DNA of 64,000 nucleotides from Aeromicrobium ginsengisoli (GTDB lineage: Bacteria; Actinomycetota; Actinomycetes; Propionibacteriales; Nocardioidaceae). The translations under genes and the position numbers were made by a program. The stretch is from the NCBI RefSeq assembly GCF_004134905.2, contig NZ_SDPQ02000003.1, positions 124,001-188,000 on the forward strand. The letters run 5' to 3'. Below the pieces are notes generated by a model. That model was not told the origin of the DNA. It did no database searches and saw only the letters and a list, made by a program, of their open reading frames with translations. Shown in pieces: positions 7,652 to 13,228 of this stretch (within the stretch, counting starts at the first letter, position 1; every line of letters begins with the position of its first letter).

Positions 7652-8326
7652 TCACTGGCCGTACGCGTTCTGGTAGCGGTCGAAGAGGCTGGCGATCTGG
7701 TCCGGCGGGATGGGCACCGGTTCGCCGAGCTGTCGGGCGATGTGGGTCGTACGCGCGACTTCCTCGCACATCACGGCGGCCTTGACTGCCGAGCGCGCGT
7801 CCTTGCCGATCGCGAAGACGCCGTGGTTCTGCATCAGGACGGCCGGCGAGTTGCTGTCGCGCAGCGTGTCGACGATGCCGCGGCCGATCGAGTCGTCACC
7901 GATCAGGGCGAACGGCCCGACGGGGATCTCCCCGCCGAACTCGTCGGCCATCATGGTCAGGACGCAGGGGATGGGCTCGGCGCGGGCCGCCCACGCCGTC
8001 GCGTAGGTCGAGTGGGTGTGCACGACGCCGCCGACCTCGGGCAGGTGCCGGTAGACGTACGCCTGGGCGGCGGTGTCCGACGACGGGGCGAGGTCTCCCT
8101 CCAGCACCGCGCCGTCGAGGTCCGTGACGACCATGTTCTCCGGCGTGAGGTCGTCGTAGCTGACCCCACTGGGCTTGATGACCATCATGTCGGCGCCGGG
8201 CACCCGCGCCGAGACGTTGCCCGCTGTCCAGACCACGAGCTCGTAGCGGGTCAGCTCCGCGTGCAGGGCGGAGACCTCTCGGCGAAGCCGGAGGATCGTG
8301 GCCTGGACGTCCTGGGTGAGCGTCAT
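7652..8326 (-). CDS. araD: L-ribulose-5-phosphate 4-epimerase
   Basis: 224 residues, a class II aldolase-fold enzyme that converts L-ribulose 5-phosphate to D-xylulose 5-phosphate, which then enters the pentose phosphate pathway. Visible family features: the phosphate-binding [12 protein letters not shown] and [10 protein letters not shown] segments, the zinc ligands in [13 protein letters not shown], and the third His in [10 protein letters not shown]. Its ATG overlaps the araB stop (ATGA at 8323-8326), so translation is coupled to araB. Length and motifs match AraD more closely than fuculose aldolase, and the flanking araA and araB settle the call. Confidence 0.96.
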
Positions 8327-9993
8327 GCCGCGCCCCCCGCCAGCGCTTCGCGGCGCAGGGCGTGGAGCCGGTGCATGACGTCGTTGCCGCCCCGACCGAA
8401 GTGGTCGTGCAACGCGGTGTACTCGGCGAACAGCCGGTCGTAGACCTTGGAGCGTCCCTCATCGGGCAGTACGACTGCCCGATTGAGGGAGCCCATAGCC
8501 TTCGCGGCGGCGCGTATGTCCGCGTACGCGCCAGCCGCGACGGCAGCATGGAGGGCAGAGCCCAGAGCCGGGCCCTGCTCGGACCCGATCACCGAGAGCG
8601 GCAAGCGGGTCACGTCGGAGTAGATCTGCATGAGGAGCGGGTTCTTGGAGAGACCACCGGCGATGATGAGCTCCTCGACGGGCACCCCGCTGGCGTTGAA
8701 CGTCTCGATGATCGTGCGGGTGCCGAACGCCGTCGCCTCGATCAGCGCGCGGTAGACGTCCTCGGGCCGGGTCGCCAGCGTCTGGCCGACGATCAGCCCG
8801 GTCAGCTCGTGGTCGACCAGCACCGAGCGGTTGCCGCTGTGCCAGTCGAGCGCGACCAGACCGTGCGCCCCGACAGGCTGCTTGGACGCGAGCTCCGTGA
8901 GGTGCTCGTGAACGCCGATGCCCGCGGCGTCAGCCGCCTCGCGGACGTAGGCAGGAACGCCGTGGTCGACGAACCAGCCGAAGATGTCCCCGACGCCGCT
9001 CTGGCCGGCCTCGTAGCCCCATGTGCCGGACACGATGCCGCCGTCCACGACGCCACACATGCCGGGCACCTCGCGCAGGACGCTGCCGCTCATGACATGG
9101 CACGTCGAGGTGCCCATGATCGCGACCATCTGGCCGGCGTCGACGGCCTGCGCGGCTGGCGCGGTGACGTGCGCGTCGACGTTGCCGACTGCCACGGCGA
9201 TGCCCTCGGGCAGTCCGGTCCAGCCTGCGGCCTCGGCGGTCAGCGTGCCGGCGGGACGGCCGAGCTGGCCGATCGGCTGGTCGAGTTTAGCGTTAACAAA
9301 ATCGGCAAACGCAGGGTTGAGCCCGGCGAGGAAGTCATCCCCCGGATAGGCGCCGTCCTGCAGGATGCCCTTGTAGCCTGCGGCGCAGGCGTTGCGGACG
9401 TACGTCCCGCAGAGCTGCCAGACGATCCAGTCGGCGGCCTCGACCCACCGCTCCATCGCGGCGTAGACCTCGGGGTCCTCCTCGAGGACCTGCAGCCCCT
9501 TGGCGAACTCCCACTCCGACGAGATCAGCCCGCCGTAGCGCGGCAGCCAGGCCTCGCTCCGCTGCTCGGCGAGCTCGTTGATGCGGTCGGCCTGGCCCTG
9601 CGCGGCATGGTGCTTCCAGAGCTTGACGTAGGCGTGCGGCCGGTCGGCGAACTGCGGCAGCTCGTTGAGCGGCGTGCCGTCGGCGAGCGTCGGCACCATC
9701 GTGCAGGCGGTGAAGTCGGTCGCGATGCCGATGACGTCGGCCGGGTCGATGCCCGACGCGCGCACGGCCTCTGGCACTGCGGTGCGCAGCACGTCGACGT
9801 AGTCCGACGGCACCTGCAGCGCCCAGTCGGGCGGCAGGGGCGAGCCCGGTGTCGTGGGCAGCGCGTCGCTGATCACGGCGTGCGCGTACGGGTGCACGGC
9901 GCTCGCGAGCTCACGGCCATCCTTGACCGAGACGACCAGGGCGCGCCCCGAGAGGGTGCCGTAGTCGACTCCGACGACGTACTGTTCGCTCAT
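8323..9993 (-). CDS. araB: L-ribulokinase (FGGY family)
   Basis: 556 residues. It phosphorylates L-ribulose with ATP to L-ribulose 5-phosphate. The FGGY fold shows an N-terminal nucleotide-fold motif (VGVDYGTLSGRALVV), the DFTACTM substrate region and the C-terminal ATP-binding IIAGGLSKNPLLMQIYSD. Its start ATG at 9991-9993 overlaps the stop of the microgene 9990-10076, and its stop overlaps the araD start. The ribosome-binding signal (GGGG about six bases away) is weak, which fits translational coupling to the microgene. An AT-rich operator-like site (9284-9299) lies within the coding region and reads as codons for AKLDQ-region residues, about 700 bp from the start. Confidence 0.95.
   Translation of the reverse strand: MSEQYVVGVDYGTLSGRALVVSVKDGRELASAVHPYAHAVISDALPTTPGSPLPPDWALQVPSDYVDVLRTAVPEAVRASGIDPADVIGIATDFTACTMVPTLADGTPLNELPQFADRPHAYVKLWKHHAAQGQADRINELAEQRSEAWLPRYGGLISSEWEFAKGLQVLEEDPEVYAAMERWVEAADWIVWQLCGTYVRNACAAGYKGILQDGAYPGDDFLAGLNPAFADFVNAKLDQPIGQLGRPAGTLTAEAAGWTGLPEGIAVAVGNVDAHVTAPAAQAVDAGQMVAIMGTSTCHVMSGSVLREVPGMCGVVDGGIVSGTWGYEAGQSGVGDIFGWFVDHGVPAYVREAADAAGIGVHEHLTELASKQPVGAHGLVALDWHSGNRSVLVDHELTGLIVGQTLATRPEDVYRALIEATAFGTRTIIETFNASGVPVEELIIAGGLSKNPLLMQIYSDVTRLPLSVIGSEQGPALGSALHAAVAAGAYADIRAAAKAMGSLNRAVVLPDEGRSKVYDRLFAEYTALHDHFGRGGNDVMHRLHALRREALAGGAA
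9284..9299. promoter_or_regulatory. LacI-type operator-like site within araB
   Basis: AGTTTAGCGTTAACAA matches 13 of 16 positions of the perfect site at 16020-16035, including the GCGTTAACAA core with a central CG. It is well inside araB, so it could be an auxiliary site for looping or a roadblock. It may also be chance, although such AT-rich words are scarce here. Confidence 0.4.
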
Positions 9994-10076
9994 GCCGCGA
10001 TCCCCGTCAGAAAACCACGGTACGGAGACCGCGGCATGAACACAGTCTCAAGATGACCTCGCTGGCGCTCGCTCAC
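9990..10076 (-). CDS. 28-residue microgene between lacI and araB (paralogue of 12108-12194)
   Basis: A GTG-started frame of 28 codons plus stop. The GTG overlaps the stop of the LacI gene (GTGA at 10073-10076) and its TGA overlaps the araB start (ATGA at 9990-9993). The peptide begins VSERQR, has a central Glu, and ends with SPYRGFLTGIAA. The second microgene in this operon (12108-12194) has exactly the same length, the same double overlap and aligns without gaps with nine identical non-start residues (SERQR, E, YR, F). I do not recognise a family. It could be a translated linker that carries ribosomes to the next gene or a functional small protein. There is no membrane segment. Confidence 0.6.
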   Translation of the reverse strand: MSERQRGHLETVFMPRSPYRGFLTGIAA

Positions 10077-11101
10077 TTCTGGGCCTTTCGGGTGGTCGGA
10101 GCCGCCGTGCTCGAGCGGATGATCAGCTCGGGGGCGATGAGTCGTGGAAGGTCTTCGTTCTCGCCGCTGATCGCGGCGTGCAGCACGTCGATCGCGCGGC
10201 GGCCGACCTCCTGGAAGTTCTGCCGCACGGTCGTCAGCGGCGGGTTGAGGAACTCGGTCTCGGGGGTGTCGTCGAAGCCCACGACGCTGATGTCGTCCGG
10301 CACCGCGATGCCGGTCTCGTGCAGGGCGTGCATGAGGCCGATCGCCATCTGGTCGTTGGCGACGAAGACCGCGGACGGTCGGTCCTCGGCCGCGAGCTGG
10401 CGTCCCGTGATGTAGCCGCTGCGGGGGGTCCAGTCGCCGAGGTAGAGCGGGCCGAGCTCGAGCCCGGCGGCGCGCAGCGCGTCCTCCCAGCCCTGACGGC
10501 GGGCCTCGGCCTCGGTCCACTCGAGCGGTCCGCGCACGTGCGCGATCGTCGTGTGGCCCAGCTCGATCAGGTGGGTCGTCGCCTCGTACGCTCCACGGTG
10601 CTGGTCGACGCCCACGGCCGACCTGGCCTTGGACAGGTCGCCCTCGACGACGACGAGCGGCACGCCCGGGTCCTGGCGGCGGATCGCGTCGAGCGCCTCG
10701 TACTGCGCGGCGATCATGACGATGCCCTCGACCGACTGCCGGAGCAGGTGGTCGATCGCGTCGGTCAGCGACTGCGCCGTGACCGTCGGCAGGCTCACCG
10801 ATCCGGCGAAGTAGCCGGCCTGGCGGGCGGCGTCCTCGACCGTGCGATGAATGCTGTTGGGGCCGTAGAGGCCCGACTCGGTGCTGATGATGCCGATCGT
10901 CGACGACTTGCGGGTCACGAGCGCACGGGCGGCGGTGTTGGGCCGGTAGCCGAGCTCCTTGATCGCGGCCTCGACCCGCTTGCGCGTCGAGTCCTTGATG
11001 TTGGGCATGCCGTTGATGACCCGCGAGACCGTCTGGTGGGAGACGCCGGCGACCTTGGCGACGTCCGCCATGACCGGCGCGTGCTGCTGGCTCGCCGTCA
11101 T
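10073..11101 (-). CDS. LacI-family repressor of the arabinose island
   Basis: 342 residues from the ATG at 11099-11101, which overlaps the yjfF stop; the frame extends further upstream but that part lies inside yjfF. The N-terminal helix-turn-helix reads DVAKVAGVSHQTVSRVING, followed by the hinge (RPNTAARAL) that inserts at a central CG. The rest is a periplasmic-binding-like sensor domain with the C-terminal VVGFDDTPETEFLNPPLTTV typical of the family. It lies in the operon it should control, between the importer and araBAD. The five sites with a GCG core (819, 9284, 15963, 16020, 16097) are its likely targets, and arabinose or a related furanose is the likely inducer. It is not the GntR-type AraR of Bacillus. 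Confidence 0.88.
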   Translation of the reverse strand: MTASQQHAPVMADVAKVAGVSHQTVSRVINGMPNIKDSTRKRVEAAIKELGYRPNTAARALVTRKSSTIGIISTESGLYGPNSIHRTVEDAARQAGYFAGSVSLPTVTAQSLTDAIDHLLRQSVEGIVMIAAQYEALDAIRRQDPGVPLVVVEGDLSKARSAVGVDQHRGAYEATTHLIELGHTTIAHVRGPLEWTEAEARRQGWEDALRAAGLELGPLYLGDWTPRSGYITGRQLAAEDRPSAVFVANDQMAIGLMHALHETGIAVPDDISVVGFDDTPETEFLNPPLTTVRQNFQEVGRRAIDVLHAAISGENEDLPRLIAPELIIRSSTAAPTTRKAQK

Positions 11102-12111
11102 GTGGTCCGCCGCGTGAAGAGCCGCTGGATCAGGACGAAGGCCAGCAGCAGCACGCCGATCGTGATCTTGGTCCACCACGAGCTCAACGTGCCGTCGAAC
11201 GAGATGAACGACTGGATCAGGCCGAGCACCAGGACGCCGACCGCCGATCCGAGCACGAGGCCCGAGCCGCCGGTCAGCAGCGTTCCGCCGATGACGACGG
11301 CCGCGATGGCGTCGAGCTCCATGCCGACCGCGCCGAGGTTGTAGCCCGACAGGGTGTAGATCGAGAACAGCAGCCCCGCGAGTGCGGAGCAGAAGCCGCT
11401 GATGACGTAGACGCCGACCTTGGTGCCGGCGACGGCCAGGCCCATCAGAAGGGCGGACTGCTCGCTGCCGCCCACGGCGTACACCGTGCGGCCGAAGCGG
11501 GTCATGTGCAGCACCACCGCGGCGATCACCAGCACGACGAGGGCGACGACGACCGACGGGGTGATGAAGTAGTCGCCGATCTCGATCGTGCCGCTCGCGA
11601 ACGACGTGAACGTCCCGTTCTTGATCGGGATCGACTCGAGGCTGATGACGTAGCAGAGGCCACGGGCCAGGAACATGCCCGCGAGCGTCACGATGAACGG
11701 CTGGATCTCGAAGTAGTGGATCACGAGTCCCATCAACAGACCGAGCACCGAGCCGGTCAGCAGGACCGTGACGATCACGAGCGGCGCCGACCAGCCGGAG
11801 CGCAGCGTCGAGGCCGCGATCATGGTCGACAGGGCGACGACCGAGCCCACCGACAGGTCGATCCCGCCCGTGAGGATCACGAACGTCATGCCGACCGCGA
11901 GGACGATGAGGAACGAGTTGTCGACCAGCACGCTGAGGATCGTCTGCGGCGACGAGAACCCTTCGTAGCGGATGCTGCCGGCGCCGAACATCCCGATGAA
12001 CAGCGCGATCGTCGCGAGCACGGGATAGAACCGCGGCGGCGGGGTGAACCGACGGATCGCGTCAGGCAGCGAGCTGCCGAGGTCCTTGATCGTGGGTGCC
12101 TGGGCGCTCAT
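11098..12111 (-). CDS. yjfF: Furanose ABC importer permease, YjfF-like
   Basis: 337 residues with eight to ten hydrophobic helices. The conserved permease segment VGMTFVILTGGIDLSVGSVVAL and the C-terminal GGSGLVLGSAVGV are characteristic of the ribose/galactofuranose (CUT2) class. The N-terminal half (DNSFLIVLAVGMTFVIL) resembles E. coli YjfF more than YtfT. It pairs with the second permease (12191-13228) as a heterodimer fed by the YtfR-like ATPase. The start overlaps the microgene stop (ATGA, 12108-12111) and has a strong GGAGGTAA site placed within the microgene; its stop overlaps the LacI start. Confidence 0.9.
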   Translation of the reverse strand: MSAQAPTIKDLGSSLPDAIRRFTPPPRFYPVLATIALFIGMFGAGSIRYEGFSSPQTILSVLVDNSFLIVLAVGMTFVILTGGIDLSVGSVVALSTMIAASTLRSGWSAPLVIVTVLLTGSVLGLLMGLVIHYFEIQPFIVTLAGMFLARGLCYVISLESIPIKNGTFTSFASGTIEIGDYFITPSVVVALVVLVIAAVVLHMTRFGRTVYAVGGSEQSALLMGLAVAGTKVGVYVISGFCSALAGLLFSIYTLSGYNLGAVGMELDAIAAVVIGGTLLTGGSGLVLGSAVGVLVLGLIQSFISFDGTLSSWWTKITIGVLLLAFVLIQRLFTRRTT

Positions 12112-12194
12112 CGCGTTACCTCCAGAGAAAAGGCACGGTATGAAGGCAACGCGAAGATTGCTGCCTCATGATTCGCTCGCTGGCGCTCGCTCAT
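12108..12194 (-). CDS. 28-residue microgene between the two permease genes (paralogue of 9990-10076)
   Basis: An ATG-started frame of 28 codons plus stop. Its ATG overlaps the upstream permease stop (ATGA, 12191-12194) and its TGA overlaps the yjfF start (ATGA, 12108-12111). The peptide begins MSERQRANHE, contains PSYRAF and ends SLEVTR. The codons for LEV supply the GGAGGTAA ribosome-binding site for yjfF. The first 18 bases after the start nucleotide (TGAGCGAGCGCCAGCGAG) are identical to the other microgene, and TACCGTG recurs near the end. No family recognised. Function may be translational relay, small protein, or both. Confidence 0.62.
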   Translation of the reverse strand: MSERQRANHEAAIFALPSYRAFSLEVTR

Positions 12195-13228
12195 GACGTG
12201 GCACCTTTCGCGAGCAGGGACGACGGTCGTCGTACGGAGAGGGCTGCGCGCGCCTTGGGCGACTGCAGCAGGCAGACCACGATGACGACGACGGCCTTGA
12301 AGAGGTAGTTGGTCTCGGCCGGGATGCCCATCGTGGGGATCGTCGTCGCGAGCGTCTGGATGAACATCGCACCGATCAGCGTGCCGGTCAGCGAGAACCG
12401 CCCGCCGGCCAGCGACGTGCCGCCGATGACGACCGCGAGGATCGCGTCGAGCTCGATGAACAGGCCCGCTGCGTTGGCGTCGGCCGCACTGGTGTTGGAG
12501 GCGATCATCAGGCCCGCGATGCCGGAGCAGAACGCCACGAAGACGTAGACGGTCCAGGTGATCGTGCGCGCCCGCACGCCGGCCAGCCGGCTGGCCTCGG
12601 GGTTGATGCCGACGGCCTCGATCAGCATGCCGAGCGCGGTGCGCCGGGTCAGCACCGCGGTGATCGCGAAGACGGCCAGGGCGATCAGGATCGCGATCGG
12701 CAGCCCGACCACGAACCCCGTGCTGACCTTCCCGAACAGCGAGTTGTTGACCGTGGTGATCTGACCGTCGGTGATCAGCATCGCCAGGCCGCGGCCCGCG
12801 GTCATGAGCACGAGTGTCGCGATGATGGGTTGGATCCCCAGGACCGAGACCAGGAAGCCGTTCCAGACGCCCAGCAGGACTGCGACTCCGACGGCCATGG
12901 TCATCGCGATGATCGCGCGACCGGCGGTCGACTCGTCGGGCGAGCCGGCCATGTACGTGCACGCGACCGCACCGGAGATCGCGGCGACCGCGCCGACCGA
13001 GAGGTCGATGCCGCGCGTCGCGATCACGAGCGTCATGCCGAGGGCGATCAGCAGCGTCGGGGCGCTGTTGCGGAGGATGTCGATCAGGCTGCCGTAGAGG
13101 TGGCCGTCCTGGACACGGAGCGAGAAGAAGTCTGGCGTCTTCGTGAGGTTGAGCAGCAGCAGGAGCACCAGCGCCAGGGTGGGCCAGAACAGGTTGTGGC
13201 GGACGAACCGCAGACCGAGGTCACGCAT
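12191..13228 (-). CDS. ytfT: Furanose ABC importer permease, YtfT-like
   Basis: 345 residues from the ATG at 13226-13228, which has a GGGGGAGGTG site and overlaps the ATPase stop by eight bases; an upstream in-frame start at 13264 lies deep in the ATPase gene and is less likely. The segment DGHLYGSLIDIL followed by ALGMTLVIATRGIDLSVGAV closely recalls YtfT. It is an inner-membrane CUT2 permease with about nine hydrophobic helices. It works with the YjfF-like subunit, and the two-permease arrangement is itself typical of the YtfQRT-YjfF importer. Confidence 0.92.
   Translation of the reverse strand: MRDLGLRFVRHNLFWPTLALVLLLLLNLTKTPDFFSLRVQDGHLYGSLIDILRNSAPTLLIALGMTLVIATRGIDLSVGAVAAISGAVACTYMAGSPDESTAGRAIIAMTMAVGVAVLLGVWNGFLVSVLGIQPIIATLVLMTAGRGLAMLITDGQITTVNNSLFGKVSTGFVVGLPIAILIALAVFAITAVLTRRTALGMLIEAVGINPEASRLAGVRARTITWTVYVFVAFCSGIAGLMIASNTSAADANAAGLFIELDAILAVVIGGTSLAGGRFSLTGTLIGAMFIQTLATTIPTMGIPAETNYLFKAVVVIVVCLLQSPKARAALSVRRPSSLLAKGATS

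Follow-up and report, generated by a model that had tools for sequence, protein, structure and literature searches.

Twin 28-codon frames in an arabinose operon of Aeromicrobium ginsengisoli belong to a dispersed, probably mobile repeat family that is MIRU-like in kind

The stretch analyzed here (the window) comprises 64,000 nucleotides (nt) of Aeromicrobium ginsengisoli (contig NZ_SDPQ02000003.1, positions 124,001 to 188,000, assembly GCF_004134905.2) and contains an operon in which two very short reading frames each overlap both neighboring genes. The presence of an L-ribulokinase (TIGR01234), a LacI-family regulator, sugar ABC-transporter permeases, an ATPase, and a binding protein bears out the arabinose label given to this operon in an earlier note. 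Both microframes lie on the minus strand, E1 running from 10076 to 9990 and E2 from 12194 to 12108, and we propose that they are two copies of a small, probably mobile repeat element. The features of the two copies and their neighbors, in window coordinates, are as follows.

12108..12194, minus strand: element copy E2, 87 nt, ATGA...ATGA, a 28-codon frame between two sugar ABC-transporter permease genes (covariance model, 93.6 bits)
12176..12193, minus strand: conserved 5' box TGAGCGAGCGCCAGCGAG of E2 (pattern matches)
12141..12157, minus strand: 5' arm of the E2 hairpin, columns 39 to 55 of alignment A2 (alignment, pair test, and fold)
12108..12124, minus strand: 3' arm of the E2 hairpin, including GGAGG (12119-12123) and the downstream ATGA (alignment, pair test, and fold)
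9990..10076, minus strand: element copy E1, 87 nt, GTGA...ATGA, a 28-codon frame between the LacI-type regulator and L-ribulokinase genes (covariance model, 90.4 bits)
10058..10075, minus strand: conserved 5' box TGAGCGAGCGCCAGCGAG of E1 (pattern matches)
10023..10039, minus strand: 5' arm of the E1 hairpin (alignment, pair test, and fold)
9990..10006, minus strand: 3' arm of the E1 hairpin, including GGGG (10002-10005) and the downstream ATGA (alignment, pair test, and fold)
12191..13228, minus strand: upstream neighbor of E2, a sugar ABC-transporter permease (BPD_transp_2), with its stop TGA within the first ATGA of E2 (domain search)
11098..12111, minus strand: downstream neighbor of E2, a second permease (PRK11618/YjfF-type, 412.8 bits, cutoff 363), with its start ATG in the last ATGA of E2 (domain search)
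10073..11101, minus strand: upstream neighbor of E1, a LacI-family regulator, with its stop TGA within the GTGA of E1 (domain search; the mechanical open reading frame [ORF] starts at 11179, and the scan was taken from 11101)
8323..9993, minus strand: downstream neighbor of E1, L-ribulokinase (TIGR01234, 798 bits), with its start ATG in the last ATGA of E1 (domain search)

The frames of E1 and E2 (MSERQRGHLETVFMPRSPYRGFLTGIAA and MSERQRANHEAAIFALPSYRAFSLEVTR) each comprise 28 codons plus a stop, align without gaps, have nine identical residues besides the start, and contain a common 18-base block, TGAGCGAGCGCCAGCGAG. The overlap with the upstream stop is GTGA in E1 and ATGA in E2, and that with the downstream ATG is ATGA in both, so that the coordinates, length, shared residues, block, and overlaps reported earlier were all found again. 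The clear GGAGG in E2 likewise agrees with the earlier proposal that one copy supplies the ribosome site of the next gene.

Within the window, a 19-nt pattern allowing up to 3 mismatches gave two matches versus 0.21 expected, and 3 of 100 shuffles also reached two. Across the 4.0-Mb source genome (G000), the 19-mer of the 5' end, RTGAGCGAGCGCCAGCGAG, has 25 exact matches. At up to 3 mismatches it has 53, versus 38 for a backward-read control, and only close matches were therefore counted. BLAST of E2 against its own genome returned 42 matches at an E value of ≤10, and a covariance model (R1) built from 29 own-genome copies (alignment A2) gave 61 matches at an E value of ≤0.001 and 84 at ≤1, antisense hits on the same hairpins included. 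Alignment A2 represents 29 of the 36 copies then in hand; five hairpin-less copies, one identical tandem copy, and one shifted copy (L020) were left out before pairs were counted. Sixty sense places were taken from the R1 matches, 58 with a locus and 2 without, and 43 of these 58 copies are 84 or 87 nt long with RTGA at both ends. Tandem pairs occur at C1:569116/569199 and C2:1153905/1153985, where the units overlap by the 4-nt RTGA (periods of 80 and 83). With some 60 related copies in the genome, the earlier note was right to see in the twins a single gene-linking element, and the reading frame of that element is preserved.

The layout of the element is RTGA, GCGAGCGCCAGCGAGCGAAT, a variable part, TCATGCCGnCGCCTCCG, a loop, and CGGAGGCGnCGGCATGA. 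Of the 43 full copies, 34 have at their first RTGA the end of an upstream frame, open over 80 codons and coding-like by GC content per codon position, while the last RTGA starts an open, coding-like downstream frame in 42 of 43, the exception being the first unit of a tandem pair. The two wrong-frame controls were each coding-like in only 2 of the 43 upstream and in 0 and 1 of the 43 downstream.

Comparison with related genomes revealed sites at which the element is missing. The orthologous operon of 12 relatives lacks an element at both the E1 and the E2 sites (12/12), and the box (RTGA[GA][CT]GAGCG) is absent from the strand read of these orthologous stretches. In the relatives G035, G026, and G023, the E1 site is a bare GTGA, with flanks matching at 90 to 94%. 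When the flanks of 26 of the 41 listed junctions were joined and used as queries against G035, 23 aligned there as a single match spanning the junction; of the other three, one corresponds to an occupied site, one to a site broken up by other sequence, and one consists of an uninformative tandem-internal flank. RTGA is present at all 23 empty sites. The first letters of the left and right RTGA agree in most copies (A..A, 33; G..G, 6; G..A, 4; A..G, 0; Fisher P = 3.4e-5), which fits a 4-bp target duplication with a later G-to-A change at the right start codon, since such a duplication predicts agreement. Interspersed copies and empty RTGA sites therefore point to mobile elements fitted to stop/start overlaps, and we infer that movement is the cause of the presence/absence pattern.

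Our preferred interpretation, to which we give a probability of about 0.82, is that the twins are copies of a small nonautonomous mobile element, similar in kind to the mycobacterial interspersed repetitive units (MIRUs), that inserts at RTGA at gene starts and lets the operon tolerate the insertion. The target RTGA would consist of a gene's start codon followed by A; in most copies, it would at the same time contain the stop codon of the preceding gene. After insertion, the left RTGA would terminate the upstream gene and start the 27- to 28-codon frame of the element, which crosses the 17-bp hairpin described below and would stop in the right RTGA, the start codon of the downstream gene. Ribosomes ending the upstream gene would restart on the microframe by termination-reinitiation, melt the hairpin, and reach the downstream start; without their passage, the hairpin would shut in the downstream start codon and, usually, the Shine-Dalgarno (SD) sequence. 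The operon would tolerate the insertion because ribosomes on the microframe open the hairpin and reach the next start. Selection for harmless insertion may be the reason for this design and for the frame.

The hairpin occupies the 3' half of the element, where 17 bp enclose the downstream start codon. Pairing was scored in 491 cells of the 29 aligned copies and holds in 93.9% of them, compared with 32 to 54% in slid registers, the register being favored in this test because the structure was derived from the same copies. Thirteen of the 17 pairs display two-sided change, and we counted 52 double-change cells versus 13.8 in shuffles, with 0 of 500 shuffles as high. In the one insertion common to G000 and G035 (C2:174918), a C-G pair in G000 corresponds to a U-A pair in G035. 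An SD-like core lies within the 3' arm in 36 of 43 copies, with GGAGG in 20. Folding of whole elements gave −40.5 kcal/mol for E1 (z = −3.15) and −28.5 for E2 (z = −0.73), with z values of −1.11 for L022 and −2.35 for L023.

The loop of the hairpin (for example, window positions 12125-12140 and 10007-10022) is itself conserved (TAYCGTGG...), two of its T positions being invariant in the 29 aligned copies; this may reflect protein binding or a function in movement. L020 (C3:846879-846965) stands out among the copies: its upstream flank and the element tail share an exact 13-nt repeat (GGTGCCGCGATGA), to which the 5' arm is nearly complementary. A search of window positions 9500 to 12700 against Rfam 15 returned two hits, both below the gathering score and neither on the elements, and a known Rfam structured-RNA family was rejected for this interval.

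Several observations weigh against the mobile-element interpretation or parts of it. The structure tested for covariation came from the same 29 copies; the covariation itself could arise at the DNA level, through palindrome correction or a structure needed for movement; single-sequence folds are mixed over the four copies (z = −0.73 to −3.15); and 7 of 43 copies have no SD-like core in the interval searched. The upstream-gene test failed in 9 of 43 copies, of which two are second units of tandem pairs and up to seven may have no upstream overlap, and 15 of the 58 extracted copies are nonstandard. Counts of open frames are not independent events, the copies being related by descent. In 41 copies, the target flank resembles the element tail for 1 to 2 bases beyond RTGA (2 and 0 of 1,000 permutations as high), but this resemblance was not seen against the empty-site flanks of G035 (23 copies; 3 of 26 left out), which does not support a longer target duplication or guided targeting at these positions (−1/−2). 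No transposase for the element was found: the Y1_Tnp domain (PF01797) was searched for in 49 genomes of the genus and detected in none at an E value of ≤0.001, a control search being positive in 5 of 14 known genomes, and mobilization by a Y1 (REP-type) enzyme was rejected on this basis.

The nonstandard copies comprise five box-only or hairpin-less copies (L005, L007, L009, L018, and L028), four with another 5' part (L261, L263, L264, and L266), three of 78 to 83 nt (L004, L054, and L265), two departing at one end (L248 and L258), and the first unit of a tandem, L013, shortened by the match boundary of the model. In the first five, the box leads straight to or into the downstream frame, as internal deletions or fusions. 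The four with another 5' part (C3:406707, C3:706170, C1:962088, and C2:428401) keep the hairpin and the terminal ATGA, begin with a sequence close to CCCRCGAGYTCTRCGAGYAGG, and have no left RTGA; they may form a second subtype that serves sites lacking an upstream overlap.

Our principal doubt concerns whether it is at the RNA or the DNA level that the hairpin is maintained. It may be a DNA-level feature, required for movement or preserved as a palindrome by template-switch repair, in which case the covariation would be silent on RNA and translation. Replication can correct an imperfect palindrome in a single step, which favors this explanation, as does the dependence of the 5' arm on whether the end is GTGA or ATGA. 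However, it leaves unexplained both an open frame that ends in the downstream start and the SD-like core in the 3' arm of 36 of 43 copies, and we consider it unlikely as the whole explanation, although RNA and DNA levels may act together on the hairpin.

A less probable alternative is that the element is a domesticated regulatory switch, whose hairpin makes the downstream gene depend on translation of the upstream gene and whose copies the host keeps for control. The hairpin does cover the start codon, and its arms covary; moreover, in 66 copies of the box from named genomes (surveyed below), pairing between the last 12 nt and the upstream arm of the same copy is better than that obtained with swapped tails (mean, 9.64 versus 8.42; standard deviation, 0.11). 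Against this stand the fast turnover of sites, 23 of 26 being empty in G035, which is 92 to 94% identical at the window operon, and the range of match counts in genomes of the same genus, from 0 to at least 76, as is characteristic of a mobile element that the host tolerates. We therefore regard domestication of the family as improbable, while individual copies could have been recruited for control.

The evidence on the microframe itself bears on a third alternative, a family of small functional proteins (SERQR/SERSER proteins) spread by duplication. The frame is open end to end in 42 of 43 full copies, compared with 22 of 43 for the fair control frame (+2); the +1 frame (open in 0 of 43 own copies and 7 of 84 named-genome copies) is not a fair control, because RTGA itself places a stop there. 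Of 87 box copies from named genomes, 3 had flanks too short or masked, and among the other 84, 62 close in DTGA and are followed by a downstream frame without a stop in the remainder of the 330 nt read, versus 11 for the fair control. In relatives, all 35 loci counted (of 36, L094 being dropped) have a frame that ends in DTGA after 84 or 87 nt, so that the expected conservation of frame and length in relatives was borne out for the family, whereas the two window insertions themselves are absent from all 12 relatives. Differences per codon position (1/2/3) are 0.443/0.423/0.393 in the 84-nt copies and 0.475/0.427/0.373 in the 87-nt copies, and we detected no excess of third-position change among the full copies of the source genome. 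The codon positions vary alike, and therefore what is kept is the frame and not the peptide.

The SERSER subtype has one base fewer in the box than SERQR (−1). Among the five aligned SERSER copies, three regain the frame by a +1 change shortly afterward, with other residues in between, while L059 regains it in the loop and L054 stays out of frame. Two features of the own-genome copies would suit a protein family, namely, the recurrent N terminus (MSERQR or MSERSER) and a middle part that often resembles PxPPYRG. The absence of a third-position excess and the frame-shifted subtypes led us to reject such a family and, with it, the same suggestion in the earlier note; in addition, in other genera the stretch GAGCGAAGCGAG is translated as ERSE or AKR and the variant GAGCGCCAGCGAG as SASE, and the closed frames in named genomes are mostly 72 to 90 nt long (56 of 62). 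We thus hold a protein function to be very improbable, and small actinobacterial ORFs with an MSERQR or MSERSER start may be frames of a repeat instead of genes for proteins.

Chance occurrence of short frames in a compact, GC-rich operon has a negligible probability: although such frames are common (77 ORFs of at least 25 amino acids overlap 10 kb), the roughly 60 related copies, the precision of the empty sites, and the R1 matches that 33 of 36 other genomes of the genus contain speak against it, and the 25 exact 19-mer matches and 61 covariance-model matches genome-wide are decisive for rejecting a chance origin, which the earlier note had already thought hard to credit.

The family extends beyond the source genome. 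R1 matches were found in 33 of 36 other genomes of the same genus, with 0 to at least 76 matches per genome (76 being the number scored). Counting the source genome, matches occur in 44 of 49 genomes of the genus, and among 294 genomes drawn from the family, 12 belonging to other genera have them as well. Outside the family, weak matches were seen in six genomes (best E value, 3.8e-6). The spread is patchy, since the exact box is present in only 7 of 396 genomes drawn evenly from the phylum, the source and one genome of the same genus included. A survey of named genomes yielded at least 120 stretches with the box, and 80 loci are among the matches listed, three of them from Aeromicrobium. The SERSER-type box was seen in Nocardia, Micromonospora, Catellatospora, Kitasatospora, Streptomyces, Nocardioides, Kribbella, Aeromicrobium, and others, as well as in one contig titled as a Mycobacterium metagenome-assembled genome (L181), again among the matches listed. 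The best R1 scores among these 80 loci, 74.3, 58.6, and 53.6 bits, all belong to Aeromicrobium, the next being 39.9, which by itself would make Aeromicrobium the probable source of the window. In three Nocardia contigs with the same flank (L144, L150, and L154), the box seems to form the N terminus (MSERSERIMDTAHG...) of a longer frame, a possible exaptation.

It is tempting, though doubtful, to propose an undescribed, distinct, actinomycete-wide superfamily of translation-gated mobile elements, of which mycobacterial MIRUs would be one branch. The hairpin would stay closed over the next start codon and be opened only by ribosomes on the microframe, so that each insertion would create a gene pair dependent on ribosome traffic. 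In its boldest form, the proposal would have the 5' arm (TCAY...), complementary to RTGA, also guide the choice of target.

Three known systems invite comparison. Repetitive extragenic palindromic (REP) sequences and bacterial interspersed mosaic elements (BIMEs) are short palindromic repeats with many copies and a specific tetranucleotide at the edge, moved by Y1 transposases. The window family is likewise short, palindromic, multicopy, and bordered by a tetranucleotide, but it sits in stop/start overlaps, carries a frame, and is found in a genus of which all 49 genomes searched gave no Y1_Tnp match. Natural and engineered coupling ORFs of short length (bicistronic design), as presented in a passage of PMC12548453, deliver the ribosome to the next start and overcome repressive structure. 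The short frame of the window family also leads to the next start; here, however, the leader is a mobile repeat in tens of copies.

The closest likeness in architecture is to MIRUs. According to the same passage (PMC12548453, citing Supply et al. 1997), MIRUs are apparently mobile and insert at start codons, an internal ORF being coupled to the gene there at a −4-nt spacing. The window family similarly is a short repeat dispersed at many loci, sometimes in tandem, holds a small ORF that overlaps its neighbors by the DTGA pattern (open in 42 of 43; upstream overlap in 34 and downstream overlap in 42), and, by its empty sites (23 of 26 in G035, all 23 with RTGA), inserts at a DTGA that is a start codon. 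A passage of PMC4213456 gives 77 and 53 bp for the MIRU units of the senX3-regX3 region and places these units only in Mycobacterium leprae and the Mycobacterium tuberculosis complex. With the 4-nt overlap, the units amount to 81 and 57 nt, multiples of three. We found a 20-nt MIRU core (up to 1 mismatch) in 138 of 297 genomes of the genus taken to be Mycobacterium, a wider range than that passage gives for the senX3-regX3 MIRUs. Of 30 such cores in 20 loci, 28 have a nearby DTGA (2 have none in the distance searched), and 20 of the 28 end in ATGA or GTGA at a length of 54 or 57 nt.

Judged by eye only, MIRU units differ from the window family in displaying no long hairpin and no 22-nt box. 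Their sequence similarity to the window copies is not above that of dinucleotide shuffles (as high in 323 of 500 for E1 and 103 of 500 for E2), and homology received no support for these copies; for seven elements of other genera, 9 to 204 of 500 shuffles were as high, and a distant link of some of these to MIRUs is possible. The earlier note knew of no described family of this kind. This was incomplete as to the architecture, which the passage of PMC12548453 describes for MIRUs, and stood for the family itself: among the open-licence papers listed by our searches we recognized no description of such elements outside mycobacteria, a scope that does not establish their absence in print ("MIRU-like" in the text seen of PMC9189399 denotes a cyanobacterial species). 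The architecture is held in common and sequence similarity does not exceed that of shuffles; therefore, on present evidence, the window elements are of the same kind as MIRUs but form a separate family. MIRU repeats serve to type tuberculosis strains, as a passage of PMC2734929 notes, and the sources retrieved in our literature search, as far as their text was available, gave no account of how MIRUs move. This second family, which numbers tens of copies, turns over quickly, and has cleanly empty counterpart sites, makes Aeromicrobium a tractable place to test whether mobile DNA can enter operons harmlessly by way of translational coupling and to seek the enzyme that moves such repeats.

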